DNA from: a candidate division Zixibacteria bacterium SM23_81
GTDB taxonomy: Bacteria > SM23-81
Length of the DNA stretch: 39,942 nt
Reading direction: 5' to 3'
NCBI GenBank assembly: GCA_001304015.1
Contig: LJUY01000018.1
Span: 1-39,942 of the forward strand
In this document: piece after piece, positions 1-20,772 of the stretch
How the letters are laid out: every line of letters starts with the position of its first letter
How positions within the stretch are numbered: the stretch's first letter is position 1
The notes under the pieces: generated by a model
Told to the model about the DNA's origin: nothing
The model's input: the letters and a program-made list of their open reading frames with translations, nothing else
Database searches by the model: none
Program-made: the position numbers and the translations under genes

Positions 1-1563
1 CGACTGTGGCATAGGATCTGACACCGTCCATGATCGGGGGGACGAGGTTTTCAGTGGTCTTGGCTGCCTTCTTTATGGCTGCGAGTCTCTCTGCAACTTC
101 CTCCTGGTTTCTCCGCTTCTTGGCCTCGTTCAGTTTCTCCTTCTGTCTTCTTTCAACCTCTGGATTGATGCGGAGAATCTCCTCGGAAGGTGTCTCCGTG
201 ATTGTGAACTCATTCACACCTACAATGGTTGTAGCCTTCGTCTCAATGCCTTTCTGATACTGGTAAGCGCTGTCCGCAATCTCCCGCTGCATGTAGCCGG
301 ACTCAATGACCTTCACGGCCCCTCCTACGGCATCGATTTTTTCGATGTATGCCGCAGCTCCGGCCTCGATCTCGTCGGTCAGGGCCTCCTTTCATGGGCA
401 ATAATCTGTTGGGTTCTGAGGGCGATCCGGACGGCCTCCTCCGAGGGAAGGGCGAGAGCTTCATCCCTAGAGTTCGTATGGAGCGATTGGGTTCCACCGA
501 GAACGGCGGCAAGGGCCTGAAATGCGACACGGACCACGTTATTATCAGGCTGCTGGAGGGTCAGTGTTGATCCTGCTGTCTGGGTATGGAATCGGAGCAT
601 ACAGGATGCAGGCTTCTGGGCATGGAACCGCTCTTTCATTATTCTTGCCCAGAGTCGCCTGGCAGCGCGAAATTTGGCGATCTCTTCCAGTAAGTTATTG
701 TGACAATTAAAGAAGAATGACAACCGCTTCGCAAAATCGTCCACATCGAGCCCGACGTCGATGGCCGCCTGGACATAGGCAATGGCGTTGGCGAGGGTGA
801 AGGCGACCTCTTGAACTGCAGAGGACCCTGCCTCCCTCATGTGGTAGCCGCTGATGCTGATCGTGTTCCACTGAGGGACGTTGTCTTTGCAGAAGGCAAA
901 AATGTCCGTGATAATGCGCATGGAGGGACGGGGGGGGAAGATGTGGGTTCCTCGAGCCACGTACTCCTTGAGGATGTCATTCTGAATGGTTCCTCTGACT
1001 TGCTCCGGTTTTACGCCCTGCTTCTCTGCAACGGCGAGATACATGGCGAGAAGAATGACCGCTGTGGCATTGATCGTCATGGAGGTACTGACCCTATCCA
1101 GGGGGATGCCTTCGAAAAGGGTCTCCATATCTGACAGGGTATCGATGGCTACACCGACCTTACCCACCTCACCCAGAGACATCGGGTGATCTGAGTCGTA
1201 TCCGATCTGAGTGGGGAGGTCAAAGGCCACGCTCAACCCGGTCTGTCCCTGTTCCAGGAGGTATTTATATCGTTTGTTGGTCTCTTCGGCGGTAGCAAAA
1301 CCGGAATATTGTCGCATGGTCCAGAATCGGCCGCGATACATAGTGGGTTGAACCCCACGCGTGAAAGGATACTCACCGGGAAATCCCAATCGCTCAATAT
1401 AATCGTCCTCGCGCTCGTCGATCGATGTATATAGCCGCTTGAATTCGATATGAGAAGTAGATTCGAACTTCTTTTTTCTCTCAGGAAACCGGCTGACAGA
1501 TTTGCTGAAAGTGGTCTCCTCCCATCTTTTTGTCTCAGCTATGAGTTTTTCCCTTTCCTCCAT
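1..1563 (-). pseudogene. Methylmalonyl-CoA mutase-type large subunit, frameshifted and cut by the window edge
   Basis: B12-dependent acyl-CoA mutase large (catalytic TIM-barrel) subunit without its own B12 domain. The intact N-terminal frame (394 codons, start 1563) carries the family motifs: WTMRQY with Tyr86, ARGTH with Arg204, and SGYH with His241. By family knowledge these match Tyr89, Arg207 and His244 of Propionibacterium methylmalonyl-CoA mutase, so the substrate should be a methylmalonyl-type (carboxylated) acyl-CoA. The frame breaks at about 386-391: the segment expected between IIAHE and ALTDEIEAG, with the conserved DPLAGSYYVE motif, is missing (about 15 residues, roughly 46 nt), which shifts the frame. 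Downstream, 1-385 still reads as an intact mutase continuation without stops up to the edge. So this is either a recent lesion or an assembly error. The start overlaps meaB by 29 bp, implying translational coupling. Family certain; pseudogene status less so. Confidence 0.88.
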
Positions 1564-2521
1564 GATCGCTCCTCAGATGGCTCTTCAAATGCTCTCTCAT
1601 GATCTTTTCCACCAAGCCATAGGGATTGCCCTTCCTGTCCACCAACTGCTGAAGCATCTTGTCGAGGGTTTCGCCCTCCTCCATGCGTCCCAGAACGCTT
1701 TCCAGCAATCGGGTCTGAAGCAGTTTCAGGAAGTGTTTCTTGGTCCGGAGTTTGTTTTTCCCATCGAGTTTCTTCGATTCGATCAGAGAGTTGCGGTGTC
1801 TGGATACCCCATAGATCAGCTCAAAAACGCCCTTTCCCAGGACGGCTTCGGTTTTGAATATGGGAGGGGTCCACCCGTCCTGTCGAGGGGGGGCCATCTC
1901 AATCATCACTCGGAGTTCTTGCTCCAGCTTCTCGGCCCCCTCCCGTTCACTCTTATTAATGACAAAGATGTCGGCGATCTCAAGGAGTCCTGCCTTGATG
2001 ATTTGGACCTCGTCTCCGAGTCCGGGGACTGTTACGACGATGGACGTGTGGGCCGTGTTGACAATCTCGACCTCGTCTTGCCCGACCCCTACCGTTTCGA
2101 CGATGATAATGTCTTTGCCCATGGCATCCATGACATTGATGATGTCGTGGGTCGACCTGGAGATTCCTCCCAGATAACCGCGAGTGGCGAGGCTTCTGAT
2201 AAAGACACCGTCATCTGTACTGTGCCGCTGCATCCGGATTCTGTCGCCGAGAATCGCGCCTCCTGTAAAGGGGCTTGTGGGATCAACCGCAACGATTCCG
2301 ATAGTTTTTCCCTCTTTTCTAAATATCTCTACGATCTTATCGACCAGGGTGCTTTTGCCAGAACCCGGCAGTCCTGTTACCCCTATGATATACGCGCGAC
2401 CTGTCTTGGGATAGAGTTTTTTCAGCTCATGCCAGGCATCTGGGAGATCGTCGTCGATATCCCGCATGAGGCGGGCTGCCGCCCTCACATCGCCTTTGAG
2501 TATTCTTTCAGCAAGCCCCAT
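1535..2521 (-). CDS. meaB: MeaB/ArgK-family G3E GTPase, mutase chaperone
   Basis: A 328-residue P-loop GTPase of the MeaB (ArgK/MMAA) family, which gates cofactor loading and protects B12-dependent acyl-CoA mutases from inactivation. Visible motifs are the Walker [13 protein letters not shown] (about residues 47-58), [19 protein letters not shown], the ETVGVGQ region with its Walker B-like acidic residue, and INKSE in place of the usual NKxD guanine-specificity motif. Length fits the family. It precedes and overlaps the mutase large-subunit gene by 29 bp, so it probably serves that mutase and possibly the second mutase at 6.2-8.4 kb. The C-terminal stretch ([12 protein letters not shown] and onward) is the expected dimerisation helix region. 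Confidence 0.95.
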
Positions 2522-2750: not shown

Positions 2751-3923
2751 CTAACCTCTCGGATCGCCCGGAACACCAATGTGACGGGCGATGACGATTC
2801 GCTGAACTTCGCTGGTGCCCTCGCCGATGTCCAGGAGTTTCTGATTCCGATAGTGTCTCTCCACGGCATATTCTTTCATCAGTCCATAGCCTCCGTGGAG
2901 TTGAACCGCATGGTTCACGACCCGATGGTAGGTTTCTGAGCACACCAGCTTCGCCATGGCGGATTCTTTGGTATAGGGTTTCTTATTATCGGCCAACCAG
3001 CAGGCCTTGTAAAGAAGAAGCCTGGCCATCTCTATCTCTGTATACATATCAGCCAACTTGAAAGCGTTGACCTGGAAGGAGCCAATCGCACGGCCGAACT
3101 GTTCCCGCTCATGAGCATATTTCATGGCTAGTTCATAGGCCCCCTGGGCCCCTCCGAGACCCATGGCGGCAATGCTGAGCCTTCCCCCGTCCAGTGTCTG
3201 GAGCATCTGGTGAAACCCCTCACCTTGTCGGCCGAGGAGGTTCTCTTTTGGAACACGGCAGTCGGCAAAGTAGAGTTCCCCAGTATTGGAGGCACGCCAG
3301 ACCATCTTCTTATGCATCGTCTTGGCACTGAAGCCTGGAGTTCCATTGGGCACCAGAATGCAGCTCAGCTCTTTTCGTCCGTCAGGCCTTTTACCCGTTA
3401 CAGCCTGGACAATGCACACCGCGCTGATATCAGAGGAAGAATTGGTTATGAAGATCTTGCTTCCGTTGATGACCCACTCGTCCCCATCCAGGAGAGCCGT
3501 GGTTTTCGAATCTCCAGCATCTGAGCCAGCGTCGGGCTCTGTCAGGCCAAAAGAGGCGAGCTTTTGACCGGCACAGAGGTCTGGAAGCCACTGGCGCTTC
3601 TGCTCCTCGCTTCCAAAGGTGTAGATGGGATAAATCCCCAGGGAATTTCCGGCAGCAAGGGTCGCAGCCTGGGAGCCATCGATCCTGGCAATCTCCTCTG
3701 TGGCGATGATATACCCCATATAGCCGATGTCAGACCCCCCGTACTGTTCAGAGACGAAGGGACCCAACAGGCCGAGCTCTCCCATTCGGTGTGTGAGTTG
3801 AACGGAGAATTCCTCTTTCTCGTCCAGCTCTTCGGCAACCGGCGCGATCTCTTTTTCGGAAAAAGCCCTGACCATTTTCCGGATGCTCTCCAGCTCCTCA
3901 TCAAGGTCAAAATTAAGCGCCAT
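2751..3923 (-). CDS. Acyl-CoA dehydrogenase
   Basis: FAD flavoprotein of the acyl-CoA dehydrogenase family (390 residues from the chosen start) that oxidises an acyl-CoA to the 2-enoyl-CoA and passes electrons to Etf. It shows FGLTEPDAGSDAG (flavin/substrate loop), INGSKIFITN, the LHGGYGLMKEYAVERHYRN region, and IGEGTSEVQRIVIARH with the catalytic-base Glu in the EGT motif. The start at 3923 has GGAGGAG a few bases upstream; a longer frame to 3959 adds 12 unconserved residues. It lies downstream of the DUF35/thiolase-like pair and upstream of meaB on the same strand. Chain-length or branched-chain specificity cannot be read from sequence alone. Confidence 0.93.
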   Translation of the reverse strand: MALNFDLDEELESIRKMVRAFSEKEIAPVAEELDEKEEFSVQLTHRMGELGLLGPFVSEQYGGSDIGYMGYIIATEEIARIDGSQAATLAAGNSLGIYPIYTFGSEEQKRQWLPDLCAGQKLASFGLTEPDAGSDAGDSKTTALLDGDEWVINGSKIFITNSSSDISAVCIVQAVTGKRPDGRKELSCILVPNGTPGFSAKTMHKKMVWRASNTGELYFADCRVPKENLLGRQGEGFHQMLQTLDGGRLSIAAMGLGGAQGAYELAMKYAHEREQFGRAIGSFQVNAFKLADMYTEIEMARLLLYKACWLADNKKPYTKESAMAKLVCSETYHRVVNHAVQLHGGYGLMKEYAVERHYRNQKLLDIGEGTSEVQRIVIARHIGVPGDPRG

Positions 3924-3972
3924 AGGCACTCCTCCGAATTGGCAACTCGCTAATGGCAAGCCTCTCCGTTTT

Positions 3973-4160: not shown

Positions 4161-4661
4161 TTATTCCTCATACGGAACCCAATAGATGTTCAGAATCGTG
4201 TTTGTGGGTACCTTCTGAAATTCAGCCTTTACCTTCATTCCGATTTTGGGTTCTCCATACCTGAGCCATCCCTTGAAGATGGTACAGACACCCGGAAGCT
4301 CGACGTCGATCTGCCAGTAAGGTTCGGAAATCTCAAGACCCATTCCTCCGTAGGCCACCTTGGTGTATGTGTATATGGTCCCAATGACCGGATGAGAGAT
4401 CTCTTCCCAGTCCATCGGTTGATGACAGTCCGGACAATCGGCCCGCGCTGGTAGCCAGAGACGGTTTTCTGAGCATTTGGAGTTTGTGCATCGTGTCGCA
4501 AGGAGCCTGCCTTCCTGGAGCCCCTTGAAAAAGGGTGTCAATTTCCCGTAAGTGTGCCTATGCAAGAATGTCCTTGGCCACTCGACGACCATGGCTGGCT
4601 CCGTCTGGATTACCTTGGCTGGCTGACCAATGAATTGGGCTTCATCTTTTCTATTCCCCAT
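4161..4661 (-). CDS. DUF35 (zinc-ribbon/OB-fold) acyl-CoA-binding protein
   Basis: A 166-residue DUF35 protein. The zinc ribbon has Cys58 and Cys63 (CTNSKC), then Cys76 and Cys79 (CPDC), followed by an OB-fold-like stretch (VIGTIYTYTKV, VCTIFKGWL, IGMKVKAEF). By family knowledge, DUF35 proteins bind acyl-CoA and form complexes with thiolase-superfamily partners, for example ChsH2 with Ltp2, BbsA with BbsB, and archaeal thiolase/DUF35 pairs. The partner here is the thiolase-like gene immediately upstream. I chose the ATG at 4661 because a GAGGAG ribosome site lies 7 nt before it. An ATG at 4682 would overlap the thiolase stop as ATGGTAG but has a poorer site. Either way the two are tightly coupled. 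Confidence 0.9.
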   Translation of the reverse strand: MGNRKDEAQFIGQPAKVIQTEPAMVVEWPRTFLHRHTYGKLTPFFKGLQEGRLLATRCTNSKCSENRLWLPARADCPDCHQPMDWEEISHPVIGTIYTYTKVAYGGMGLEISEPYWQIDVELPGVCTIFKGWLRYGEPKIGMKVKAEFQKVPTNTILNIYWVPYEE

Positions 4662-4675
4662 GAGACTCTCCTCTT

Positions 4676-6070
4676 CTACCATGCTTTTCGCAGGATTCCC
4701 ATTGTGACGTGGGAGCCAACACCGGCATGGGAAACCCAAGCGGCCTGGCATCCGTTGCGGTCCGGAATCTGAAGACTCTCCCAATCTTCGGGCTTTTTCT
4801 TGCCCCAGAACTCCCAGATCTTGGGATCCCCATGGAATCTGTCGTATTTCTGCTGAACCTGCCAGAGACACTCTACCCCCTGGAAGATACCCGTTGCCCC
4901 CACAGCGTGCATGGTGCCGATGAGGCCCCCTGAGAGGTTGGAAGGGCACTTCCCTGGTTTTTCCGTGTTCGGATTGATGTAATAGGCATCACCAGATTCG
5001 ATATAGTCTGGTTCCTGGCCATAAGGCCTGAGACCAATATCGCCGTAGGTCTGGATGTCGCTGATAGTGAAGGCGTCGTGAAGTTCGACGAGGTCCAAGT
5101 CTTCTAGTGGGTTCTCGATGCCTGCCATACGATAACAGAACCAGGCAGCCATCCGAGAGGCCAGAAAACTCTCAAATCCAGGATATCGTGATCCGGGTTT
5201 TATGAGTTCCTTGTACGTCTCTGGCGTCTCATGAGGAAGGAGTGGAATCTCCTGGTGCCTTCGATCCGCCACCCGGAGGGTATGACTCCCTCCAGCAATG
5301 AACAGCTCGCAGGGCCGGTCTGTGAGTTTGTAGGCAGTCTTCTCATCACAAAGGAGAATGCAAGCGGCCCCCACACTCATGGCGCAACACTCCAGAAAGC
5401 GAAGCGGCCAGGCAGACATTCTGCTGTTGAGAATGTCCTCCACGGTGTACTTGCCAGGTTGCTGGGAATAGGGGGAAGAGCAGGCATAGAGATGGTTCTT
5501 GACGGCCACTTTAGCCCTGGTTTCTTCCGACAGCTTGTAGGTCTCCATGAAACGCTTTGCCATAGGAGCGTAGTAGGCCGAATACATGCGTGCAAGACGG
5601 GTCTCGTAGTCCTTACAAGCAGCGAAAGAAATATACGTGTTGCCTGTACGGGTATCCACCTCATCCATTCGTTCCCAACCGGCAACGAGGACCACATCGG
5701 CGTAGCCGCTAGCCACAGCCATGGCACCTGTGAGAACGGCGCTTCCTCCTGTGGCACCACCGGTCTTCACCCCGATGTTGTAAAGGGGGTCGAGGCCGAG
5801 GTAGTCATGGACCTTGGCCTCACAGAGGAGTTGGTCCTGGAAATGGTCTGCAAATTCAGCGTACACGGCGTAGTTGACGAGACCCTTCACCTCAAGAGGA
5901 TCTATTTTGAGGTCATTCTTTTCTAGCATCTGACGGAAAGCGGTCATGACCAGCTCTTCCAGCTTATATTCCGGGAATCGTTTCCTATAGTCCGTCAATC
6001 CCCCGGCTACTGCGAAGACTTTTCTGCCCCACTTCGGGATTCGTTTGTTCCCTTCCTTCATAACAATCAT
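4676..6070 (-). CDS. Thiolase-superfamily (SCP2-thiolase-like) protein lacking the nucleophilic Cys
   Basis: A 464-residue thiolase-fold protein of the group that pairs with DUF35. The position that holds the catalytic Cys in thiolases (ACASGG type) reads GGATGG at residues 104-109, so Cys is replaced by Gly105. The active-site His residues persist: His331 in ELHDAF and His388 in MHAVGATG. The C-terminal Cys/NxGGG region is also altered (SHAGVGSH). Loss of the nucleophile argues against ordinary Claisen thiolysis. By analogy with the Ltp2-ChsH2 aldolase, a retro-aldol C-C cleavage is possible; a non-catalytic scaffold is the alternative. The ATG at 6070 follows GGGAGGA by six bases; ORF extension to 6091 is not supported. 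It lies between the mutase small subunit and the DUF35 gene. Confidence 0.88.
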   Translation of the reverse strand: MIVMKEGNKRIPKWGRKVFAVAGGLTDYRKRFPEYKLEELVMTAFRQMLEKNDLKIDPLEVKGLVNYAVYAEFADHFQDQLLCEAKVHDYLGLDPLYNIGVKTGGATGGSAVLTGAMAVASGYADVVLVAGWERMDEVDTRTGNTYISFAACKDYETRLARMYSAYYAPMAKRFMETYKLSEETRAKVAVKNHLYACSSPYSQQPGKYTVEDILNSRMSAWPLRFLECCAMSVGAACILLCDEKTAYKLTDRPCELFIAGGSHTLRVADRRHQEIPLLPHETPETYKELIKPGSRYPGFESFLASRMAAWFCYRMAGIENPLEDLDLVELHDAFTISDIQTYGDIGLRPYGQEPDYIESGDAYYINPNTEKPGKCPSNLSGGLIGTMHAVGATGIFQGVECLWQVQQKYDRFHGDPKIWEFWGKKKPEDWESLQIPDRNGCQAAWVSHAGVGSHVTMGILRKAW

Positions 6071-6163: not shown

Positions 6164-6571
6164 TCAACCTCGTAGTTTCACATGTCCCTTAACCCACGCC
6201 ACAGCCTCTTCTATTCTGGTTCCAGGGGTGAAGATCGCCTTGACTCCGGCCTTGTTCAACTCTGGAATGTCCTCCTCCGGAATGATTCCACCGCCAATCA
6301 CCGTGATATCGTCGGCTCCCTCTTCCCGGAGAAGCTCTGTGATTCGAGGGAAGAGATAGTCGTGGGCACCTGAAAGGGCACTCAGCCCGATGACGTCCAC
6401 GTCCTCCTGAATGGCTGTCGCCACGATCTGTTCAGGCGTCTGATGGAGGCCTGTGTAGATGACCTCGAAACCGGCATCTCGAAAGCCTCTGGCAATGACT
6501 CGTGCTCCTCTGTCGTGTCCGTCGAGGCCTGGTTTAGCAATGAGAATCCGGATTTTTCGTTTTGGGCTCAC
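6164..6571 (-). CDS. Acyl-CoA mutase small subunit (B12-binding)
   Basis: A 135-residue stand-alone cobalamin-binding domain of the methylmalonyl/isobutyryl-CoA mutase type. The B12 ligand motif DxHxxG is present as Asp17, His19 and Gly22 (GLDGHDRG), followed by the expected Rossmann elements ([13 protein letters not shown] and [12 protein letters not shown]). The length is typical of split-mutase small subunits. The start codon is GTG, preceded by AAAGGAG. It lies 113 bp downstream of the intact large subunit (6685-8358), its most likely partner, though it may also serve the broken paralogue. An 18-bp near-palindrome shared with the MerR gene lies 42-59 bp upstream of the start, suggesting direct regulation. 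Confidence 0.95.
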
Positions 6572-6684: not shown

Positions 6685-8358
6685 TCAAAACATGCCTGGA
6701 TCCTGGTAGGTCCCAAAAACCTGTCTGAAAACGTCACAGATCTCCTGGAGGGTGGTATACTCTCGCACGGCATCGATGATCAAGGGCATGAGGTTTTCAT
6801 CACCTTCGGCCCCTCTGCGGATTCGCTCCAGATGAGTCCTCACCCTATCATTGTTTCTCGTTGTCTTAACCGCTTTGAGTCGCTCAAGCTGTTTCTTCTC
6901 GATGGCCGGGTCCATCCGCCAGATAGGGATGGGTGGGTGATCTGTCACGTATTTGTTGACTCCAATCAGGGTCTTTTCACCACTGTCGATCTGCTGTTGA
7001 TAGATATAGGCTGATTCTGCAATCTCCGCTTGGGGGTACCCCCTGTCGATCGCCTTTACCATCCCCCCCAGTTCATCGATCTTGTGGATATACTCCCAGG
7101 CGTCCTCCTCTATTCGATTGGTCAGGGCCTCGACGAAATAAGATCCGGCCAGGGGATCAATGGTGTTGGCCACTCCGGTTTCTTCGGCCAGAACCTGCTG
7201 GGTTCTCAAGGCGATGAAGGCCGCTTCCTCCGTGGGGATGGCATAGGTTTCGTCCAGGGAGTTGGTATGGAGTGATTGGGTTCCCCCCAGAACGGCGGCC
7301 AGAGCCTCACAGGTCGTTCTGACCACGTTATTGTATGGCTGCTGGGCGGTAAGAGAGACACCGGCCGTCTGCGTATGGAACCTTAGCATCCAGGACCGTG
7401 AGCTTTTCGAACCAAATCTTTCCTTCATAATCCTCGCCCACATCCGACGGGCGGCCCTGAGTTTTGCGATTTCCTCAAAGAAGTCGATATGGGCGTCGAA
7501 GAAGAAAGAGAGGCGGGGAGCAAAACGGTCAATATCGAGGGCACGGTCGATGCATGCCTCCACGTAGGCAATACCGTCGGCCAGAGTAAAGGCCAATTCC
7601 TGAACGGCAGTGGCGCCTGCCTCCCGGATATGATAACCGCTGATGCTGATGGTATTCCACCGAGGGACCTCAAGGGTGCAGAATTCAACAGTGTCGACGA
7701 TGAGGCGTATGGAGGGATTGGGGGGAAGCATGAGGGTCTTCTGGGCGATGAACTCTTTCAGCATGTCATTCTGAATCGTTCCGCTGATCTGTTCTCGATT
7801 CACGCCCTGCTTCTCTGCGGCCACGATATACATGGCCAGAAGAATCGATGCAGGGGGGTTGATGGTCATGGATGTGGTTACCCTATCGAGGGGGATGCCA
7901 TCAAACAGAATCTCCATGTCTTTGAGGGTATCAACTGCCACACCGCACTTGCCGACCTCCCCCTTTGCCATGGAGGAGTCGCTGTCGTAGCCCATGAGGG
8001 TAGGGAAGTGGAAGGCCACACTTAGGCCGGTCTCGCCGTGTTCGAGTAGGTATTTGAAGCGTTGGTTTGTCTCCTCGGGCCCTCCGAGACCCGAGAACAT
8101 CCGCATCGTCCAAAGTCTTCCTAAATACATCGATGGTTGGATGCCCCGAGTGAAGGGGTACTGACCAGGAAATCCGATTTTTTGAAAATAATCGAGGTGT
8201 TTGATGTCCTCAGGAGTGTAGAGCCCTTCGATTTCGAGATCCGAAACCGTAGAAAAACGATTGCGTCGAAGTGGAACTTTCGACCGAGCCTCGTCCAGGT
8301 CTTTTTTCCACCGACCTTTGCCCTGCCTCAGTTCCGCGAACTCTTCCTCTTTGACCAT
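6685..8358 (-). CDS. B12-dependent acyl-CoA mutase large subunit, isobutyryl-CoA mutase-like
   Basis: A 557-residue catalytic subunit of the acyl-CoA mutase family, full length for the split form. Family motifs are [37 protein letters not shown] with the catalytic His243, and FHTQTAG. The substrate-site positions differ from methylmalonyl-CoA mutase: Tyr89 is Phe88 (RMFSG) and Arg207 is Gln206 (IAQKT). By family knowledge Phe/Gln is the isobutyryl-CoA mutase signature, while 2-hydroxyisobutyryl-CoA mutase has Ile/Gln plus an Asp at the position that is Ala115 here. So a non-carboxylated branched acyl-CoA such as isobutyryl-CoA is the likely substrate. Oddity: the usually conserved AFD is AFH (His117). 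The ATG at 8358 follows GGAGG. Its B12 subunit is the next gene. Confidence 0.93.
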
Positions 8359-8428: not shown

Positions 8429-10372
8429 TCACTCGCCCATACAAAGGGCATAAACCTGGGCAATAATTTGCTCTGGTTTGAAGTGTTTCAAGGAGATGGC
8501 GCCGGCCGGACATGCCGAATTGCAAGCGCCACAACCCTTGCAAAGAGCTGTGTTGATGGTCATTAGTCGTCTGTAAGGGTCCAGCGTCAGAGCAGCATAC
8601 TCACAGACCTCTTCGCAGATACCACAGCCGGAACAGATCCCCTCGTCGATAGCGGCGATGACAGGGTCGATTGCGACCTTCCCCTGAAAAAGAGTTGTCG
8701 TGGCTCTGGAAGCTGCTCCATGGGCCTGAGCCAAGGTGTCGGCAATGTCCTTGGGACCTTGACAGGTTCCCGCGAGGAAGATGCCATCGACTGCCGTGTC
8801 GAGGGGTCTGAGTTTGGGGTGGACCTCCATGAAAAAGCCATCAGGGCTGAGGGATAGTTTCATAAGATTCTTGAGACTCTGTGCGCCTTGGGACGGAATA
8901 AGACCCGTTGCCAAGACCACTAGATCGAACGCTTTCTCGTAGGGCTGACCAAGAAGGGCGTCTTCACCCCGCAGCACCACCTTATCCCCCCCCCTGAATA
9001 TCTCCGAGGGGACTCCCTTCTTATAGATCACTCCCCTTTTTTGTGCTCGTTCGTAGAGTTCCTCGTATCCCTTTCCGAAGGTCCTCACGTCAATATAGAA
9101 GACCATCACCTCTGAATCAGGGATATTCTCCCGGACCCAAAGCGCCTGTTTTGCGGTGTAGGTGCAGCAGACCCTTGAGCAGTATTCATTGCCCACCTGC
9201 TTGTCCCGTGAACCCACACAATGGACAAAGGCGATGGCCTTTGGAACCGTATCGCCGATCCTTGGGGTCTCCTTGGTCCGCCCCCAAGAGGCGGTCAGCC
9301 TCTCGAATTCCGCGGCCGTGATCACCTGCTGGTACTTCCCGTACCCGAGCTCGGTCTTCTTTGTTGCATCGAAAATGTCGTGGCCCGTGGCCACAATAAT
9401 GGTTCCGACTTGGACTTGTTCGAGTCGACCCTCTTGAGTGAAATCAATCGCCCCCTGAGGGCAGGTCCGTTGACACCGATCGCACGATTGATCCTTGAAG
9501 TGGAGACAGGCCTCGGTATCTATGAGAAGGATCTCGTTTGGACCGTCGGTGGATGGGAAATAAACGGCCTTCCGCGCATTCCGGCGATAGTTGGAATCAT
9601 CGATCACATCAACTGGGCAGGATTTGAGACATTCACCACATCTGTCGCATTTCTCCCCGTCGACGTAATGCGGTCTCCTTCGTATTTCGGCAGAGAACTC
9701 TCCGACTGACCCGTCGATTTTCTCGACCTCAGAGAAGGGCATAACCTCAATTCTGGCATGATTCAGAACGGCCTCGATTCTTGGACCGATCAGTTGCTCT
9801 GCCTCTTCAAGATAAGGGAAAGTCCGATTTAGGCGAGCCACATGGCCTCCGAGCACCGGTGTCTTTTCCACGAGTACCACCCGAAAGCCAGAGGCCGCAA
9901 TATCGAAGGCTGCCTGCATGCCGGCAATACCACCCCCTATGACCAGAGAGCTGGGAGTGACGCTCTTCTCCTGGGCCTGGAGAGGTTCAAGAAGCTGCGC
10001 CTTGGCAATGGCCGCCGACACCAGATCTTTTGCCTTTTCCGTTGCTCTAGTTCGGTCGTGGTGAACCCAGGAACAGTGTTCGCGAATGTTGGCGATTTCC
10101 AGAAAGTAGGGGTTAAGACCCGATTTGGAGATGACATTCCGAAAAGTCCGCTCATGCATGGTTGGCGAACAGGCGGCTACGACGATCCGGTCCAGTCGTT
10201 CCATCTCTATATCCCTCATGATGAGGTCTTGGCCCGGATCCGAGCACATGTAGGTGTAGTCTCTCGCAATGACAACCTGTGGATGATCCTTAGCGAAATC
10301 CCTGACGGCCTCCACATCGACATGGTCGGCTATATTGATCCCACAGTGGCAGATGTAAACACCGATCTTCAT
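8429..10372 (-). CDS. hdrA: HdrA-like FAD/iron-sulfur protein, long form
   Basis: A 647-residue soluble heterodisulfide reductase A homologue. It has the HdrA N-terminal domain (ICHCGINIA near residue 10, YMCSDPGQ, ACSPTMHERTF, NIREHCSW), then an FAD dinucleotide fold (VIGGGIAGMQAAFD, about 144-157), an inserted ferredoxin (CDRCGECLKSCP, then CDRCQRTCP), HCVGSRDKQVGNEYCSRVCC, and a C-terminal two-cluster ferredoxin (CSGCGICEEVC and CKGCGACNSACP). The CxxC after the flavin fold, normally in TLDCSxCILTPKM, is lost (LEEAEQLIGPRI). HdrA is the flavin-bifurcating electron hub in methanogens and many anaerobes. The start at 10372 is fixed by conservation at MKIGVYICHC; the long open frame upstream overlaps the previous gene out of frame. 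Ten bases separate it from the short HdrA-like gene. Confidence 0.93.
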   Translation of the reverse strand: MKIGVYICHCGINIADHVDVEAVRDFAKDHPQVVIARDYTYMCSDPGQDLIMRDIEMERLDRIVVAACSPTMHERTFRNVISKSGLNPYFLEIANIREHCSWVHHDRTRATEKAKDLVSAAIAKAQLLEPLQAQEKSVTPSSLVIGGGIAGMQAAFDIAASGFRVVLVEKTPVLGGHVARLNRTFPYLEEAEQLIGPRIEAVLNHARIEVMPFSEVEKIDGSVGEFSAEIRRRPHYVDGEKCDRCGECLKSCPVDVIDDSNYRRNARKAVYFPSTDGPNEILLIDTEACLHFKDQSCDRCQRTCPQGAIDFTQEGRLEQVQVGTIIVATGHDIFDATKKTELGYGKYQQVITAAEFERLTASWGRTKETPRIGDTVPKAIAFVHCVGSRDKQVGNEYCSRVCCTYTAKQALWVRENIPDSEVMVFYIDVRTFGKGYEELYERAQKRGVIYKKGVPSEIFRGGDKVVLRGEDALLGQPYEKAFDLVVLATGLIPSQGAQSLKNLMKLSLSPDGFFMEVHPKLRPLDTAVDGIFLAGTCQGPKDIADTLAQAHGAASRATTTLFQGKVAIDPVIAAIDEGICSGCGICEEVCEYAALTLDPYRRLMTINTALCKGCGACNSACPAGAISLKHFKPEQIIAQVYALCMGE

Positions 10373-10382
10373 AGGAAGTGTC

Positions 10383-11708
10383 CTAGCTTCGCCCTTCGGC
10401 CAGGCATATGCAGGCCATGGCAGCGGCGCCACTCGCCTGGGCGACCGCATCCGGGATGTCTTTTGGGCTCTGGCAGCAACCGGCCAGGAATACCCCTGGT
10501 TTCGAGGTGGGGATGGTTTCTTTTGTTTCGGCCTCTTTGAAAAAGCCTTCCGGAGTGTGAGAAATCCCCAGCATTCTGCCGAGTTGTTCCGCATCCTGTC
10601 TGGGAACGAGACCGGTTGCCAGCACCACAAGGTCCGTTTCTTCCTCGTAAGGTTCTCCCAGAAGCGTATCTTCTCCACGAATCATGAGGGACTCGCCCCG
10701 TTTATAGATTTCGGATGGATTCCCACGCCTGAAGATGATCTTTTCTTTCTGGACTCGATCGTAGAATTCCTCGTATCCCTTTCCAAAGGCCCTGATGTCC
10801 ATGTAGCAGATCGTGATCTTGGCATCGGGAATCCGCTCTCGAACGAGATGGGCCTGCTTGGCCGTATACATGCAGCACACCCGTGAACAGTATTCGTTTC
10901 CAACGGTCTTGTCTCTGGATCCCACGCACTGAATAAAGACAACCCGTTTCGGCTCTACCCCATTGTATTCGATACTTCCCTTTGTCGGGCCCGACGCAGA
11001 ACAGAGTCTCTCAAACTCGATGCCAGAAAGGACGTTCTCATAGCGCCCATACCCGTATTCCGGTTTTAGTCTTGCATCAAACTGATCGTAACCTGTTGCC
11101 ACCACTATCGCACCGGCCTGAATGGTGACGTTTTCCTCTTTCTGATTGAAGTCGATCGCATGGGTGCCGCAGGCCTTCTGGCATCTCGGTTCTTTTCCAC
11201 ATTTTCCTTTGGTCAACATCAGACAATGGTCTGGATCGATAAGGTACTTCTGAGGAACAGCCTGAGGAAAGGGGATATAGATGGCAGCGCGTTTGCCGAT
11301 ACCCATATCAAACTCGTTGGCGATCCTCGTCCGCTGGACACATGCCTCTGCACAAAGACCGCATCCGGTACATTTTTTCAAATCCACATATCGAGGCTTC
11401 TTCCTGATGGTGATTTGGAAATCACCCATCTCCCCCTGGATCTCGATCACCTCTGAGTAAGTCATCGCCTCGATGTTCGGATGGCTGCCAACTTCAACCA
11501 TTTTGGGTGTCAGGATGCAGGAAGAACAGTCAAGTGTGGGGAAGGTCTTATCCAGTTGGGCCATGTGTCCCCCAATGGTTGGCTCCTTTTCCACCAGGAC
11601 GACCTTGAACCCCTTGTCCGCAATATCGAGGGAGGCTTGCATGCCGGCAATGCCGCCACCAATCACAAGGGCGACTGGGGACTCTATTTTCTGAGCTGGC
11701 ATTTCCAT
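10383..11708 (-). CDS. HdrA-like FAD/iron-sulfur protein, short form
   Basis: A 441-residue HdrA homologue that begins directly at the flavin fold (VIGGGIAGMQASLDIA, residues 15-30). It keeps the HdrA cluster motif TLDCSSCILTPKM (Cys61, Cys64), an inserted ferredoxin (CTGCGLCAEAC, then a CGKEPRCQKAC region), and QCVGSRDKTVGNEYCSRVCC. It lacks both the N-terminal HdrA domain and the C-terminal ferredoxin found in its neighbour, so the two proteins are complementary halves that probably form one complex. The start may be 11708 or the ATG two codons later; neither has a strong ribosome site. It lies between an acyl-CoA dehydrogenase and the long HdrA gene. Confidence 0.92.
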   Translation of the reverse strand: MEMPAQKIESPVALVIGGGIAGMQASLDIADKGFKVVLVEKEPTIGGHMAQLDKTFPTLDCSSCILTPKMVEVGSHPNIEAMTYSEVIEIQGEMGDFQITIRKKPRYVDLKKCTGCGLCAEACVQRTRIANEFDMGIGKRAAIYIPFPQAVPQKYLIDPDHCLMLTKGKCGKEPRCQKACGTHAIDFNQKEENVTIQAGAIVVATGYDQFDARLKPEYGYGRYENVLSGIEFERLCSASGPTKGSIEYNGVEPKRVVFIQCVGSRDKTVGNEYCSRVCCMYTAKQAHLVRERIPDAKITICYMDIRAFGKGYEEFYDRVQKEKIIFRRGNPSEIYKRGESLMIRGEDTLLGEPYEEETDLVVLATGLVPRQDAEQLGRMLGISHTPEGFFKEAETKETIPTSKPGVFLAGCCQSPKDIPDAVAQASGAAAMACICLAEGRS

Positions 11709-11790: not shown

Positions 11791-12945
11791 TCATTTCGGT
11801 TTTCCTACAAGCGTACTCGCAATTGTGTTTTTTTGAATCTCTCGGGTTCCCTCATAGATTTCCATGATCCTTGCATCCCGATAGAACCGCTCCACCTCGT
11901 ACTCCGTTATGTAGCCGTAGCCGCCAAGTATCTGAATGGCCTCGTCGGCGACCTCTACACTGACCCTTCCGGCGTACAGCTTTGCCATGGAGGTCAACTG
12001 AGGATCAATACGGCCCTGGTCATAATTCCACGCAGCCTTGTACGTCAAGAGGCGAGCCGTCTCGAGCATGGTATACATGTCAGCGAGTTTGTGCTGAGTG
12101 GCTTGGAAGTCCGCGATTCTTCGCCCGAATTGCCGTCTCTCCTTTGCATAGGCAAGGGCCCTGTCAAAGGCTCCCTGGGCGATTCCCAGGGCCTGGGCAG
12201 CTATCTCGATCCGGCTCTCGTCAAAGAACTCCAGAACGTGATAGAAACCTCGGTTTTCCTGACCGATTAGATTTTCCACGGGGACGTGGACTTCGGACAG
12301 AGAGAGCTCTGCCGTTGAAGTCATTCGAATGCCCATCTTGTCGCCAAGCTCGGTGGCTTCAAATCCTGGGGTCCCCCGTTCCACCACGATGGTACTCATC
12401 CCTCGGTGAGGAGGATCAGCCTCTGGGTCGGTCTGACAGAGGATCACAAAGTGGTTGGCCAGTGTTCCATTGGTGATGAAGGTCTTGGTGCCGTTGATGA
12501 CGAATTCCTGTCTGTCCTTTATCGCTGTCGTCGATAGGCGGGTGATGTCGCTTCCATGATCCGGCTCAGTATAGGCGCCGGCAGAAATCGCCTCTCCCAT
12601 TGTCACCGGTGGGAGATACTTCTGTTTTTGCTCTTCGGTGCCGAACCTGAGGATGACCTCAGAGCTAAAATCGGTCAAGGTCAGGGCAACCCCGATGCCA
12701 GAGTCCTGACGGCAGAACTCCTCCACCAGCAGGGCGTTTTCCAGAATTCCGAGCCCCTGACCTCCATATGCTTCAGGAAAATGGATCCCTACGAAGCCCA
12801 GCTTGCAGGCCTTCTGCCAGATGGATTTTGGGAAGGTGTGCTCCCTTTCCAGCTCCATGGCCAGGTCCTTGTCAAACTCTCCCTGCGCAAACTCCCTGGC
12901 GGCACGCTGAATATCCTTCTGTTCATCGCTCAGTTCAAAATCCAT
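11791..12945 (-). CDS. Acyl-CoA dehydrogenase
   Basis: A 384-residue acyl-CoA dehydrogenase family flavoprotein. Motifs are AGAYTEPDHGSD (flavin loop), INGTKTFITNG, RRQFGRRIADFQATQ, ILGGYGYITEYEVERFYRDARIM, and IYEGTREIQ with the catalytic Glu. The ATG at 12945 has GAGG upstream. It sits between etfA (upstream, across a 307-bp repeat-containing gap) and the two HdrA-like genes, so its electrons are likely taken by the encoded Etf. Substrate unknown; butyryl-CoA or another short acyl-CoA is plausible from context only. Confidence 0.93.
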   Translation of the reverse strand: MDFELSDEQKDIQRAAREFAQGEFDKDLAMELEREHTFPKSIWQKACKLGFVGIHFPEAYGGQGLGILENALLVEEFCRQDSGIGVALTLTDFSSEVILRFGTEEQKQKYLPPVTMGEAISAGAYTEPDHGSDITRLSTTAIKDRQEFVINGTKTFITNGTLANHFVILCQTDPEADPPHRGMSTIVVERGTPGFEATELGDKMGIRMTSTAELSLSEVHVPVENLIGQENRGFYHVLEFFDESRIEIAAQALGIAQGAFDRALAYAKERRQFGRRIADFQATQHKLADMYTMLETARLLTYKAAWNYDQGRIDPQLTSMAKLYAGRVSVEVADEAIQILGGYGYITEYEVERFYRDARIMEIYEGTREIQKNTIASTLVGKPK

Positions 12946-13252: not shown

Positions 13253-14227
13253 TCAAGCAAACGCCTCCTTGACCTTTTCCTTTAGGCTCGGAACGATCTT
13301 GAACAGATCTCCCACGATTCCGTAGTCGGCAACATTGAAGATCGGAGCCTTGGGATCTTTGTTGATTGCAATGATCGTCCCAGACGTCTTCATCCCGGCA
13401 ACATGCTGAAAGGCCCCACTGATGCCGACAGCAATGTAAACTTTAGGTTTCACGGTCTTGCCAGAGGTCCCGACCTGGCGCTCTTTGGGAAGCCATTTTT
13501 TGTCGACCACAGGACGACTGCACGAAAGTGCGGCCCCCAGGGAGTCGGCCAGGTCCTGCACAATGGTGATGTTCTCCTGATCCTTGATGCCCCGTCCAAC
13601 CGAAACCAGGATGGGGGACTGAGTGATATCTACCTCTCCCGCGGCAGCTTCCACATACTCGAGAAACCTCTTGGAGGCGATTTCTTCTGTAAGCGGTGAG
13701 GCTACGTTGACAATCTCGCCGGGCAGGGAGTAATCCTCCGGGGAGAAGGATGCAGGCCGGACGGTGATCAGGTGGGGTTGACCTGGCTTGAGATGAACCT
13801 CAACGTTTAGCTTGCCTCCGTAAACTTGGCGGATGGCTTTGAACCGTGCGTTCACCACCATGACATCGAGACAGTCCGTGGCGATAGGTGCGTTGATCGC
13901 GGTAGCAAGGCTCGGCGCCAGATCCATTCCAAAGGCTGTGTGGCCTATGAGGACGGCGAGGGGGTTCTCCTGTTCAATCAGATTCACGAGGGCCTTGTGA
14001 TAGGCCTCGGAGTTATAATTCTCCAGTTTGGGATCTTCAACGAGCATCACCCTGTTCGCCCGATCTTTGAGCTGATCGGCCATCTTACCAGCGTTGTGCC
14101 CGAGGAGAAGAGCCACGAGAGGCTTTCCCATCTCTTCGGACAGCGTCTTCCCCTTCGTGAGCATTTCAAAAGTAATGTCTCGAAGTTCACCCTGCCGGTG
14201 TTCAGCGAGTATAAAGATATCGTCCAT
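13253..14227 (-). CDS. etfA: Electron transfer flavoprotein alpha subunit
   Basis: A 324-residue EtfA with the C-terminal FAD domain intact: SCSRPVVDKKWLP, QVGTSGKTVKPKVYIAVGISG, FQHVAGM, and IAINKDPKAPIFNVADYGIVGDL. With EtfB it accepts electrons from acyl-CoA dehydrogenases. The ATG directly abuts the etfB stop (TAGATG), so the two subunits are translationally coupled. Neighbouring HdrD- and HdrA-like genes suggest that electrons go to a soluble Hdr-type complex, since no membrane Etf:quinone oxidoreductase is encoded in the window. I cannot tell from sequence alone whether this Etf is bifurcating. Confidence 0.96.
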   Translation of the reverse strand: MDDIFILAEHRQGELRDITFEMLTKGKTLSEEMGKPLVALLLGHNAGKMADQLKDRANRVMLVEDPKLENYNSEAYHKALVNLIEQENPLAVLIGHTAFGMDLAPSLATAINAPIATDCLDVMVVNARFKAIRQVYGGKLNVEVHLKPGQPHLITVRPASFSPEDYSLPGEIVNVASPLTEEIASKRFLEYVEAAAGEVDITQSPILVSVGRGIKDQENITIVQDLADSLGAALSCSRPVVDKKWLPKERQVGTSGKTVKPKVYIAVGISGAFQHVAGMKTSGTIIAINKDPKAPIFNVADYGIVGDLFKIVPSLKEKVKEAFA

Positions 14228-15022
14228 CTAGGCCACCCCTCCCTTCTCCTTGAGTATAGAGACAACCCTCTCGGCAATATTCTCCACCGTCCCCTCGAGC
14301 ATTTCGGCACCCTCTCCAACAGGAGGGAGAAAGACTCGCTCGATAACGGTTTTCGATCCATTCTCCCCCGCCTCATCAGGTTTTATGCCCAGATCCGTAA
14401 GGCCAAGAACCTTGATCTCTTTCTTGGCCACCTTTCGGATTCCCATGATGGAGACATACCTGGGCTCGTTGATACCAGACTGAATGGTGAGAACAGCGGG
14501 AAGTTCGAGATCGAGAATCTCCTCTAGTCCTCCCTCGAGTTCACGATGGACCCTGGCCGTATTCCCCTCAATCCTTTCGATCCCGTTGACAACAGTCGCG
14601 TGATTGATACCGAGCATTTTTGCGAGGGTAGGTCCCACCTGACCGTAGCCATCGTCCTCCGCCTGAACCCCGGTCAGGATCAGGTCGTAGGGCAGCGGTT
14701 TGATGGCCTGGCTCAATACTGTCGCAATCGCGTGCCCGTCGGATCCGGCAAATGCGGAGTCTGTCAAGCGAATTGCCTCGTCGCCTCCCATGGCCAGAGC
14801 CCTCCTGAGCGTCTCATTGGACTCTTCTGGTCCCATTGAGATGACCGTGACAGAGCCGCCATACTTTTCCTTCAGAAGGACTGCCTCCTCCACGGCGTAG
14901 TTATCCCACTCATTGATGTCAAAAACGAGTCCGGCCTTATCGATGCCTTTTCCCGTACTGTCAATGACAATGTCGGCTTCGGCTGTTTCCGGGACCCGTT
15001 TGACACAGACAATGATGTCCAT
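14228..15022 (-). CDS. etfB: Electron transfer flavoprotein beta subunit
   Basis: A 264-residue EtfB. It begins MDIIVCVKRVPE, then shows VFDINEWDNYAVEEA, VISMGPEES, RALAMGGDEAIRL, the nucleotide-site region AEDDGYGQVGPTLAKML, and the C-terminal recognition-loop region ELPAVLTIQSGINEPRYVS that contacts dehydrogenases. Start ATG 15022 is preceded by AAAGGAGG. It is the first gene of the etfBA pair, downstream of the HdrD-like gene across a 216-bp repeat-containing gap. Confidence 0.96.
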   Translation of the reverse strand: MDIIVCVKRVPETAEADIVIDSTGKGIDKAGLVFDINEWDNYAVEEAVLLKEKYGGSVTVISMGPEESNETLRRALAMGGDEAIRLTDSAFAGSDGHAIATVLSQAIKPLPYDLILTGVQAEDDGYGQVGPTLAKMLGINHATVVNGIERIEGNTARVHRELEGGLEEILDLELPAVLTIQSGINEPRYVSIMGIRKVAKKEIKVLGLTDLGIKPDEAGENGSKTVIERVFLPPVGEGAEMLEGTVENIAERVVSILKEKGGVA

Positions 15023-15238: not shown

Positions 15239-16369
15239 TCACAGGGCTTCAACCAGAATTTCGGCGATATCCAGGATCTTTAGCTTCTCCTCGTTGCCGG
15301 TCGTCTTGACGGCGTCCTCGAGCGTCAGTAGACAGAAGGGACAGGCCGTGGCCAGAATCTCTGCACCCATCTCAACTGCATCTCGAATCCGGATTTCTGC
15401 TGAACGGGGGCCCTGATCAGAGGCTTCTACCCACATACGCCCCCCGCCCCCCTCGCAGCAGAGGCTCTTCTCTCTCGATCGGTCGAAATCGATGAAAGTC
15501 ACCCCGGGAATGCTTTTCAGGATCTCTCGTGGCTCATCAAAAACGCCGTTCTGCTTCCCCAGGAAGCAGGGATCATGATAGGTAATCACCCTCTTCATTT
15601 CCTTGGAGAAGGGATTATGCTTCTCAATAGCCTCGGCGATGACCTGCGTATAGTGGCGAACGACCAGTCCATCCTGGGCATAATCATTCTTCATGGCATT
15701 GTAACAGTGGGGAGATGTGGTGACGATGGAGCGAACATTAAGTGCCTTGAAACTCTCTGCGTTTTGCTCCATGAGCATTTCGAAGAGGCCCTCTTCGCCC
15801 ATTCTCCGAATCTCACTTCCACAACAGGTCTCGTCGTTTCCGAGGATGGCAAAGTCAAGGCCTACCTGGCGAAAACATGTAACCATGGATCGGGCCACGT
15901 TCTGCACCCGGGTGTCATAGGCCGCGGTACAACACACAAAATACAGGTGCTCCGCATGGCATTCCTCGGATAGAACCTTCAGGTCAAGTCCCTGGGCCCA
16001 CTCGCTCCTCTTGTTTTTCACTGCTCCCCAGGGATTTCCATACTTGTAAGCGCTTTCAAGGGCTTCGATGACAGTCTTAGGAATATGGCCCTCCTCGATA
16101 AGTGCCGTGCGCATGCCAATGATCAGATCAGAAGGTCGTAACTCTCGGGGGCAGCGGATAGTGCATGTTTTGCAGGCTGTGCACGCCCAGAGATCGTCCC
16201 TTTGATAGATAGACTCTAGATCGTCCAGAACCAGGGCCTCCTGCATGAGGCGTCGGATGTTCAGGGGAGAGTTGAGTGACACGGGGCAGCCGCCTGTGCA
16301 CTTTCCGCACTGGATACAGCCGAACAGCTCATATTTCTCATAGAAAGAATCGTTTTCAACCATTAGCAT
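15239..16369 (-). CDS. HdrD-like iron-sulfur oxidoreductase (fused HdrC + HdrB type)
   Basis: A 376-residue soluble protein with an N-terminal HdrC-like ferredoxin domain (CIQCGKCTGGCP and CTACKTCTIRCP) and two CCG domains as in HdrB/HdrD/GlpC (CCTAAYD with ETCCGSE, then YHDPCFLGK with CCEGGGGRMW). CCG domains hold noncubane [4Fe-4S] centres that reduce disulfides or pass electrons onward. No membrane segment is visible, unlike the membrane DUF224 Etf:quinone oxidoreductases. Placed between an acyl-CoA dehydrogenase and etfBA, it probably links Etf to the HdrA-like proteins. I chose ATG 16369, which has GAGG nine bases upstream; ATG 16378 is possible, and a frame to 16447 is not supported. 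Confidence 0.9.
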   Translation of the reverse strand: MLMVENDSFYEKYELFGCIQCGKCTGGCPVSLNSPLNIRRLMQEALVLDDLESIYQRDDLWACTACKTCTIRCPRELRPSDLIIGMRTALIEEGHIPKTVIEALESAYKYGNPWGAVKNKRSEWAQGLDLKVLSEECHAEHLYFVCCTAAYDTRVQNVARSMVTCFRQVGLDFAILGNDETCCGSEIRRMGEEGLFEMLMEQNAESFKALNVRSIVTTSPHCYNAMKNDYAQDGLVVRHYTQVIAEAIEKHNPFSKEMKRVITYHDPCFLGKQNGVFDEPREILKSIPGVTFIDFDRSREKSLCCEGGGGRMWVEASDQGPRSAEIRIRDAVEMGAEILATACPFCLLTLEDAVKTTGNEEKLKILDIAEILVEAL

Positions 16370-16521
16370 GCGTGACATCCTCGATTTTGCTAAGAATCCT
16401 GAATTCAGGGCGATAGGAGGGGCCCAGAGGCTTCGGCATTGATACAATCGGAGAACACATTGATTTGCAGCTGCTAATGAATATACATTAATTCGTCGAA
16501 AGAATTCACGCGATATGGACC

Positions 16522-20258: not shown

Positions 20259-20298
20259 CGCTTCCTTCTCCTTGGTCAAAGAACTCTGTCAAATGTCC

Positions 20299-20772
20299 CT
20301 ACTCCACCCCCTCGTTCAGCTTGGATTTGATTCTTTCTTGATAGTCGATGATCTGGTTTTTGAGTTTGCTAAGATTCTGAATTCGCTCGTCAATGCGATT
20401 CGTATGATGTTGTAGGAGTTCGAGCAGTCTCGGGAGCACCTTGCGGTTGGTTCGATGGATCTGATAGATGTCCTCAAGCTCCTGCATCTCCGCCAGGGTC
20501 AGTCCCAGGTGTTTCAGACGCTTGACAAATCTCAGCCGCTGGCAGTCTTTGTCTGTGTAGATTCGTTTTCCCCCCTCTACACGTTTCACCGAATTGAGAA
20601 GCCCGATTTCCTCGTAATACCGAATGGTTCGGGTGGTGAGTCCCACCATGGTAGCCAATTCACCGATCTGATAATGGGTCGACTTTTCCAGGGAGGTTTT
20701 TCTCCTCCTCATATGTCGGTCAGTCATCTCCGCATCGGTCTCCGCCGTTTTAGGGCTCTGGTAATGGGCCAT
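20299..20772 (-). CDS. MerR-family transcriptional regulator
   Basis: A 157-residue MerR protein. The winged helix-turn-helix starts at YQIGELATMVGLTTRTIRYYEEIGLL (about residues 33-58), followed by GGKRIYTDKDCQRLRFVKRLKHLGLTLAEM and a coiled-coil dimerisation helix (HHTNRIDERIQNLSKLKNQI). No metal-binding Cys cluster or ligand domain is visible. It resembles regulators of acyl-CoA or branched-chain catabolism (LiuR type), an inference. ATG 20772 lacks a ribosome site and the first 30 residues are not HTH; the ATG at 20727 is an alternative. It heads the minus-strand catabolic cluster, with a candidate operator just upstream. Confidence 0.92.
   Translation of the reverse strand: MAHYQSPKTAETDAEMTDRHMRRRKTSLEKSTHYQIGELATMVGLTTRTIRYYEEIGLLNSVKRVEGGKRIYTDKDCQRLRFVKRLKHLGLTLAEMQELEDIYQIHRTNRKVLPRLLELLQHHTNRIDERIQNLSKLKNQIIDYQERIKSKLNEGVE

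Follow-up and report, generated by a model that had tools for sequence, protein, structure and literature searches.

The 39,942-nucleotide contig LJUY01000018.1 of the candidate division Zixibacteria bacterium SM23_81 (assembly GCA_001304015.1; herein the window, analyzed at its full length) encodes a thiolase-like protein, P0001 (gene thl), that lacks both catalytic Cys residues of thiolases and is paired with a DUF35 protein, P0002. P0001 is a new variant among Cys-less, DUF35-coupled thiolase-fold enzymes, and its family is real and strongly constrained, not a product of decay. Members have no more precise annotation than "thiolase domain-containing protein," although conservation is strict over a range that includes Deltaproteobacteria, Chloroflexi, Planctomycetes, and Lokiarchaeota; this points to an uncharacterized, widespread enzyme family. 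Searches of open-access PMC papers on DUF35, thiolases, and branched-chain degradation, on syntrophs with mutases, and on BbsAB listed no work on the family. From the genomic context, we tentatively propose that P0001 and its partner act as a retro-aldolase of 3-hydroxyacyl-CoA in branched acyl-CoA degradation, a reading to which we give somewhat less than an even chance.

Active site, partner, and conservation of P0001

P0001 matches Thiolase_N and Thiolase_C_1 in Pfam. Its best-named NCBIfam model, NF004982 (PRK06365), is matched at full length with 512.7 bits, below the curated cut-off of 695, and assigns no function. Both Cys residues of classical thiolases are catalytic, and both are gone here. 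Alignments in two MAFFT modes place Gly105 in the column of the nucleophile (P0001, VKTGGATGG; the classical thiolase AtoB of the window, KVCGSG; another thiolase of the same genome, ESACASGG; BbsB, QSACSAG) and His448 in the column of the CxG Cys of AtoB; the position of the HDCF Cys is occupied by Ala333. A displaced catalytic Cys was looked for and none was found at the nucleophile loop, where the column aligns without displacement; Cys229, which is invariant across the scored loci, lies outside any catalytic-Cys column in the alignments. Direct reading and alignment thus agree with a preliminary description of this DNA, which had placed Gly105 at the nucleophile and both active-site His residues as retained; the latter are His331 and His388, the second within MHAVGATG. 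P0001 should perform no thiolysis, because it has no Cys to carry the acyl group.

The P0002 gene starts 14 nt past the thl stop codon and is preceded by GAGGAG. The protein has four Cys zinc ligands (C-x4-C-x13-C-x2-C) and matches zf-ChsH2 with a score of 24.1 (cut-off 23.2) and OB_ChsH2_C with 24.1, slightly below the cut-off of 27.1. Its predicted model (pLDDT 93.2) matches the folds of SSO2064, the ChsH2 of Ltp2, the DUF35 subunit of 6esq, Shy, and BbsA. The gene pair and the DUF35 fold agree with the earlier view of an intact, coupled partner, and the two proteins may form one complex.

The 86 scored loci comprise 80 that were retained after a pattern scan (bait GGATGG or F[SA]DHF) had yielded at least 466 candidates, and six longer stretches. 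Pattern-scan carriers include Deltaproteobacteria, Chloroflexi, Planctomycetes, WOR-3, Marinimicrobia, Acidobacteria, Lokiarchaeota, and three Patescibacteria, among others; whole-genome protein searches found carriers in 9 of 60 genomes and in 16 of 290 sampled genomes, the SM23_81 genome counted. G104, G105, Y163, Y166, Y167, R266, D269, R270, E281, Y286, R306, H331, D332, A333, H388, S447, and H448 are identical at all 86 loci, although Gly105 is partly selected in 80 of them, since the bait patterns include GGATGG. All 15 homologs found without motif selection keep G105, H331, A333, H388, and H448, with 12 of 12 checked sites in agreement. Chance is excluded by the conservation across the 86 loci. 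A DUF35 gene lies within 2 kb downstream of thl on the same strand at 79 of the 80 pattern-scan loci (L072 has none); at L097 the DUF35 gene is ∼7 kb from thl. In total, DUF35 matches occur at 85 of the 86 loci, with the four-Cys motif in 84.

An AlphaFold2 model of P0001, built from a 65-row alignment (pLDDT 90.2, pTM 0.93), has the thiolase fold, with Z scores of 36.7 to 54.9 among the 50 matches listed against solved structures. Every one of the best matches is a thiolase of the DUF35-coupled or SCP2 type. Nearest is 6esq, an archaeal acetoacetyl-CoA thiolase (Z 54.9, rmsd 1.6, 388 aligned residues, 27% identity), and the Pyrococcus thiolase 7yvy (Z 51.7, rmsd 1.5, 355 aligned), ST0096 (4yzo; Z 51.0, rmsd 1.6, 346 aligned), and BbsB (7pxp; Z 48.0, rmsd 2.0, 373 aligned) are also among the nearest; Ltp2 (6ok1; Z 44.6, rmsd 2.1, 363 aligned) and Sal (9myr; Z 43.7, rmsd 2.5, 378 aligned) score lower. 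The 6esq thiolase, part of a complex with 3-hydroxy-3-methylglutaryl-CoA (HMG-CoA) synthase and DUF35, shares the DUF35 partner and both His residues; it retains the nucleophilic and HDCF Cys, however, and lacks the insert and the SHAG motif of the P0001 family. The benzoylsuccinyl-CoA thiolase BbsAB shares the DUF35 pairing, the HDAF motif, and the GHP His, whereas BbsB keeps its nucleophilic Cys (QSACSAG versus KTGGATGG).

Ltp2-ChsH2 and CtSal-Shy, both steroid side-chain aldolases, resemble P0001-P0002: all have the thiolase fold, a nucleophile position taken by Gly (described for CtSal in the available part of PMC12329534), a zinc-ribbon DUF35 partner, and a setting of acyl-CoA degradation. 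In a 30-row tree, however, the P0001 family forms its own clade (100/99), apart from that of Sal, Ltp2, and 4u4e (100/100). The Tyr of the YDxF motif is replaced by His331, Ltp2 Tyr344 and Sal Gln352 by His388, and the His or Cys of YDHF and YDCY by Ala333; moreover, P0001 has no steroid context. The argument from Ltp2 homology in the preliminary description is therefore not supported: P0001 falls outside the Sal/Ltp2 clade, is nearer in fold to 6esq, and has no catalytic Tyr. Although its mode of action may resemble that of Ltp2-type aldolases, it does not belong to their family. TbSLP (5ab4) and ST0096 are likewise Cys-less at the nucleophile; ST0096 has HDM with Ser and groups elsewhere in the tree, while TbSLP, left out of the tree, has YDCF according to the portion of PMC12329534 available.

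The SM23_81 genome encodes a second Cys-less thiolase (L096:7281-8459, equal to C94:15280-16458; motifs ENGPASG and HDAF); a DUF35 gene of its own comes next. This thiolase groups with Sulfolobus ST0096 (98/96) and represents another Cys-less branch.

Gene neighborhoods and the proposed cleavage

The fetched flanks of the 86 loci contain acyl-CoA dehydrogenases (ACAD; 28 loci), enoyl-CoA hydratases (ECH; 12), other AMP ligases (10), acetoacetate--CoA ligase (AACS; 8, of which 7 at 59 to 64% identity), the mutase small subunit mutS (8) and large subunit mutL (5), and hbd-type 3-hydroxyacyl-CoA dehydrogenases (HADH; 3). A Cys-less, DUF35-paired enzyme among genes for ligases, ACAD, ECH, and isobutyryl-CoA mutase (ICM)-type mutases, with HADH rare, fits cleavage of a 3-hydroxyacyl-CoA without oxidation. 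Loci L015 and L016 repeat the core of the window, with thl, mutL, and mutS 75 to 82% identical, and two loci found without motif selection (L164 and L166; thl ∼40% identical) are operons of ACAD, electron-transfer flavoprotein (ETF), mutL, mutS, thl, and DUF35. Of the 16 unselected carriers, 7 have mutS as the gene immediately upstream of thl (G000, G023, G043, G051, G101, G170, and G228), a count in which the contigs of G035 and G047 end too soon upstream for adjacency to be judged.

MutL near thl in the window and in L015, L016, L065, L092, L098, L164, and L166 has Phe/Ala/Gln at three substrate positions, whereas the methylmalonyl-type mutases of the same genomes have Tyr/Ala/Arg. We take Phe and Gln at the positions of Tyr89 and Arg207 of methylmalonyl-CoA mutase to mark ICM specificity; by this rule, the mutL products near thl would be isobutyryl-CoA-type enzymes acting on a substrate without a second carboxylate. 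In L065, the run reads 2-oxoacid dehydrogenase E1α-E1β-E2, AtoB, HADH, thl, DUF35, IcmF (1751.7 bits against an equivalog cut-off of 1500), and FadE; its E1 and E2, which score below all cut-offs, may be branched-chain enzymes. In L018, L026, L049, L087, and L089, the gene immediately upstream of thl, with the same orientation, encodes ECH. The second-best model for ECH of L026, L087, and L089, below its cut-off, is the γ-carboxygeranoyl-CoA hydratase PRK05674, an enzyme that acts on a β-branched enoyl-CoA. L018 has a run of ligase, dehydrogenase, and hydratase with no HADH, the gene set that direct cleavage of a hydroxyacyl-CoA would need. Syntrophic isobutyrate degraders carry mutL, mutS, an adenosyltransferase, and MeaB (PMC5017805, in part); mutL, mutS, and MeaB are shared with thl loci, and L015 and L016 also have a CobO-like adenosyltransferase, as read from sequence. 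The available part of that report names no Cys-less thiolase.

As the Tyr of Ltp2 and Sal is absent, acid and base catalysis would fall to the three His residues, which makes retro-aldolase activity an inference. Together, P0001 and DUF35 would form a CoA-thioester lyase on a thiolase fold, DUF35 helping CoA binding as known complexes suggest. His331 or His448 would take the proton of the 3-hydroxyl, these two serving as base and acid; the C2–C3 bond of the 3-hydroxyacyl-CoA would break, and the products released would be an acyl-CoA plus either a ketone or an aldehyde. The acyl-CoA enolate would be held by His388 and the backbone amides near Gly105 (the oxyanion hole), with Gly105 leaving room at the former place of the Cys, until one His gave a proton back. 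The role of each His is predicted. The enzyme would act beside the isobutyryl-CoA-type mutase, and a substrate with a branched β-carbon is plausible.

Precedent comes from the retro-aldol chemistry of Ltp2 and Sal, and a possible analogy is LrcC of limonene degradation, an HMG-CoA-synthase-superfamily protein whose proposed cleavage site is a tertiary carbon (PMC12583861, in part). The retro-aldolase proposed in the preliminary description thus keeps the support of a constrained, Cys-less DUF35 pair and of the scarcity of HADH (3 of 86 loci) but loses that of kinship with Ltp2 and of its catalytic Tyr. If the assignment is right, many metagenome models that count the family as thiolases are wrong about β-oxidation; β-branched acyl-CoAs would be opened in an unrecognized way in anoxic sediments, possibly releasing acetone; and the His trio would be a third aldol solution on the thiolase fold, beside Tyr/Tyr (Ltp2) and Tyr/Cys (Sal).

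Candidate substrate and alternative functions

Acyl-CoAs from valine and isoleucine can pass through a mutase or normal β-oxidation. Neither way is open to isovaleryl-CoA: hydration of methylcrotonyl-CoA yields a tertiary alcohol, 3-hydroxyisovaleryl-CoA. We favor this compound, which would be split into acetone and acetyl-CoA, because it is the only branched-amino-acid intermediate that a mutase and ordinary β-oxidation cannot process; its choice is the weakest part of the reading. The known anaerobic solution for isovaleryl-CoA is carboxylation followed by HMG-CoA lyase (Desulfococcus; PMC5109826, in part). Across the 290 genomes, a methylcrotonyl-CoA carboxylase (MCC)-type carboxyltransferase accompanies AACS in 16 of the 28 genomes with AACS (5.3 expected, p = 2e-6). 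Of the 16 thl carriers, 5 have AACS (1.5 expected, p = 0.012), while just one, the SM23_81 genome, has MCC (3.0 expected). This co-occurrence is compatible with a possible alternative isovalerate route; AACS may activate acetoacetate or the similarly shaped isovalerate. A doubtful extension is a carboxylation-free leucine/isovalerate route in several bacterial phyla and Asgard archaea, in which a three-His, Cys-free thiolase-fold/DUF35 enzyme would bypass both MCC and HMG-CoA lyase and would make up, with isobutyryl-CoA mutase, a complete module for branched-chain acids.

Several observations weigh against retro-aldol cleavage or against this substrate. P0001 lacks, in the alignments, the Tyr of YDCY/YDHF and equivalents of Cys304 (Sal) or Tyr344 (Ltp2), on which catalysis rests in those enzymes (PMC12329534, in part), and no His-based retro-aldolase on a thiolase fold was found in the literature examined. 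No reference neighbor is present at 40 of the 86 loci, stand-alone pairs included, and the operon of the window lacks ECH but has an HADH and an atoB of its own. The acyl-CoA dehydrogenase acd1 has Glu at the IGEGTSE position, where isovaleryl-CoA dehydrogenases presumably differ. The excess of AACS with thl weakens to p = 0.04 without the SM23_81 genome, and the avoidance between thl and MCC falls short of significance whether that genome is counted (p = 0.32) or left out (0.08). In the SM23_81 genome itself, an MCC-type carboxyltransferase is present but PRK05692 HMG-CoA lyase is not, and two genomes of the same phylum (G001 and G002) have the carboxyltransferase with neither thl nor HMG-CoA lyase; these three genomes do not fit a simple replacement of the carboxylation route. 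Acetone carboxylase γ (PF08882) had no match in the SM23_81 genome, but no control genome matched either, so this search is uninformative.

Retro-aldol cleavage might instead act on a 2-methyl-3-hydroxyacyl-CoA from valine or isoleucine, giving an aldehyde and propionyl-CoA, the latter passing to methylmalonyl-CoA mutase or the methylcitrate cycle. Ltp2 itself releases propionyl-CoA; the window contains a methylmalonyl-type mutase, L100 has mutS-thl-DUF35-meaB in a genome where only Tyr/Arg mutases were shown, and prpB/C/D lie beside thl in L075. HADH and thiolase, however, can deal with such a substrate by oxidation and cleavage, which makes a bypass unnecessary, and the AACS neighbors are left unexplained; we consider it unlikely, though the best of the alternatives.

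Next is decarboxylation of malonyl- or alkylmalonyl-CoA beside a carbon-skeleton mutase. Cys-less KSQ ketosynthase domains decarboxylate, and a His pair without Cys, like the mutase neighborhood, would suit the reaction. In the available part of PMC12329534, TbSLP slowly decarboxylates malonyl-CoA but CtSal had no such activity. The alkylmalonyl-CoA variant is weakened by the Phe/Gln mutases: with Gln at the position of the carboxylate-binding Arg, their substrates should lack a second carboxylate. ACAD, ECH, and ligase neighbors would also go unexplained, and the function seems unlikely too.

The AACS ortholog beside thl suggests a third role, a nonhomologous HMG-CoA lyase giving acetyl-CoA and acetoacetate, which AACS would reactivate. 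With MCC present and PRK05692 absent, this displacement looked promising in the SM23_81 genome but failed in larger samples: MCC, the source of HMG-CoA, is found in 7 of 50 carrier genomes and missing from 43, 12 of the 50 already have an HMG-CoA lyase over the cut-off (background, 8 of 60 genomes), and only one of the 290 genomes has thl and MCC together. We hold it improbable. More improbable still is a synthase running in reverse (aldol- or Claisen-type, joining an acyl-CoA enolate to a ketone or other acceptor) or a Cys-independent acyl transferase; in principle the reaction could run either way, and the nearest folds include archaeal thiolase/HMG-CoA synthase/DUF35 and PhlABC complexes, but ETF, ACAD, and ligases make the neighborhood catabolic. 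Least probable is an inactive scaffold or regulator like PhlA, an inactive thiolase homolog (PMC2954200, in part): both Cys are lost and second thiolases exist in the same genome, but active-site His, Tyr, and Arg are invariant at 86 of 86 loci and stand-alone pairs occur with no other thiolase nearby.

Elsewhere in the SM23_81 genome (L095:4411-9043, in C49), an MCC-type carboxyltransferase, a DUF35 protein, a transporter, and a Cys-containing thiolase are encoded side by side.

Gene content of the window and further loci

Coordinates are collected in Table 1. In minus-strand order, the operon comprises MerR, atoB, HADH, ACAD, an iron–sulfur (FeS) protein, etfB, etfA, ACAD, two HdrA-like proteins, mutL, mutS, thl, DUF35, ACAD, MeaB, and a broken mutase; with mutL, mutS, and MeaB flanking thl-DUF35, the pair is embedded in a mutase cluster, as first described.

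Table 1. Features of the window (positions 1 to 39,942)
Feature	Coordinates	Strand	Remarks
thl, Cys-less thiolase-like P0001, 464 aa	4679..6070	-	stop codon 4676-4678; residues read directly
Gly105 codon	5756..5758	-	column of thiolase nucleophilic Cys
His331 codon	5078..5080	-	HDAF motif (SCP2 thiolase HDCF, Sal YDCY, Ltp2 YDHF)
His388 codon	4907..4909	-	GHP-motif His (Ltp2 Tyr344, Sal Gln352 there)
His448 codon	4727..4729	-	SHAG motif, column of classical CxG Cys
DUF35 partner P0002, 166 aa	4161..4661	-	zinc ribbon and OB fold
Mutase small subunit mutS	6164..6571	-	B12-binding
Acyl-CoA mutase large subunit mutL	6685..8358	-	Phe88/Ala115/Gln206, isobutyryl-CoA-mutase-like
Acyl-CoA dehydrogenase acd1	2751..3959	-	commonest recurrent neighbor
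MeaB-type mutase chaperone GTPase	1535..2521	-	
Second mutase large subunit	379..1563	-	Tyr/Arg methylmalonyl-CoA type; frameshift near 388; cut by contig end
Two HdrA-like flavin/FeS proteins	8429..11708	-	ORFs 8429-10678 and 10383-11708; read from sequence
Acyl-CoA dehydrogenase acd2	11791..12945	-	read from sequence
Electron-transfer flavoprotein etfA, etfB	13253..15022	-	etfA 13253-14227, etfB 14228-15022; read from sequence
CCG-domain FeS oxidoreductase	15239..16447	-	
Acyl-CoA dehydrogenase acd3	16522..17667	-	
3-Hydroxybutyryl-CoA-dehydrogenase-like protein (HADH)	17919..18767	-	read from sequence
Classical Cys-containing thiolase atoB	19083..20279	-	
MerR-type regulator	20299..20772	-	operon head; read from sequence
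Acetoacetate--CoA ligase (AACS)	24774..26726	+	ortholog adjoins thl-DUF35 elsewhere

Between 8429 and 16447 on the minus strand, ETF, the CCG-type FeS protein, and the two HdrA-like proteins form a candidate route for electrons from the acyl-CoA dehydrogenases. Within positions 1 to 450 (minus strand), the frame of the second mutase shifts near 388 and, past ∼16 missing residues, the reading resumes in a different frame up to the contig end; this is an assembly error or a pseudogene.

Stand-alone thl-DUF35 pairs occur in Phycisphaerae and in one Patescibacterium (L077). Another Patescibacterial locus (Giovannonibacteria, L092:3098-21377) contains ligases, ECH, a thiolase, thl-DUF35, a 2-oxoacid dehydrogenase, an isobutyryl-type mutase, MeaB, and ACAD, a set unusual for its phylum and a candidate case of misbinning. 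Next to the Lokiarchaeal pairs (L084:11899-16432 and L090:12150-17567) are BKACE/DUF849-like genes along with another thiolase-like pair, which has odd active-site motifs (TTGGTTGG) and a gap at the Cys. XRE matches are found near 10 of the 86 loci; in several Desulfobacterota and a Spirochaete, an XRE-type regulator lies directly upstream of thl-DUF35-ACAD (e.g., L091:4469-5011 and L024:9382-9924).

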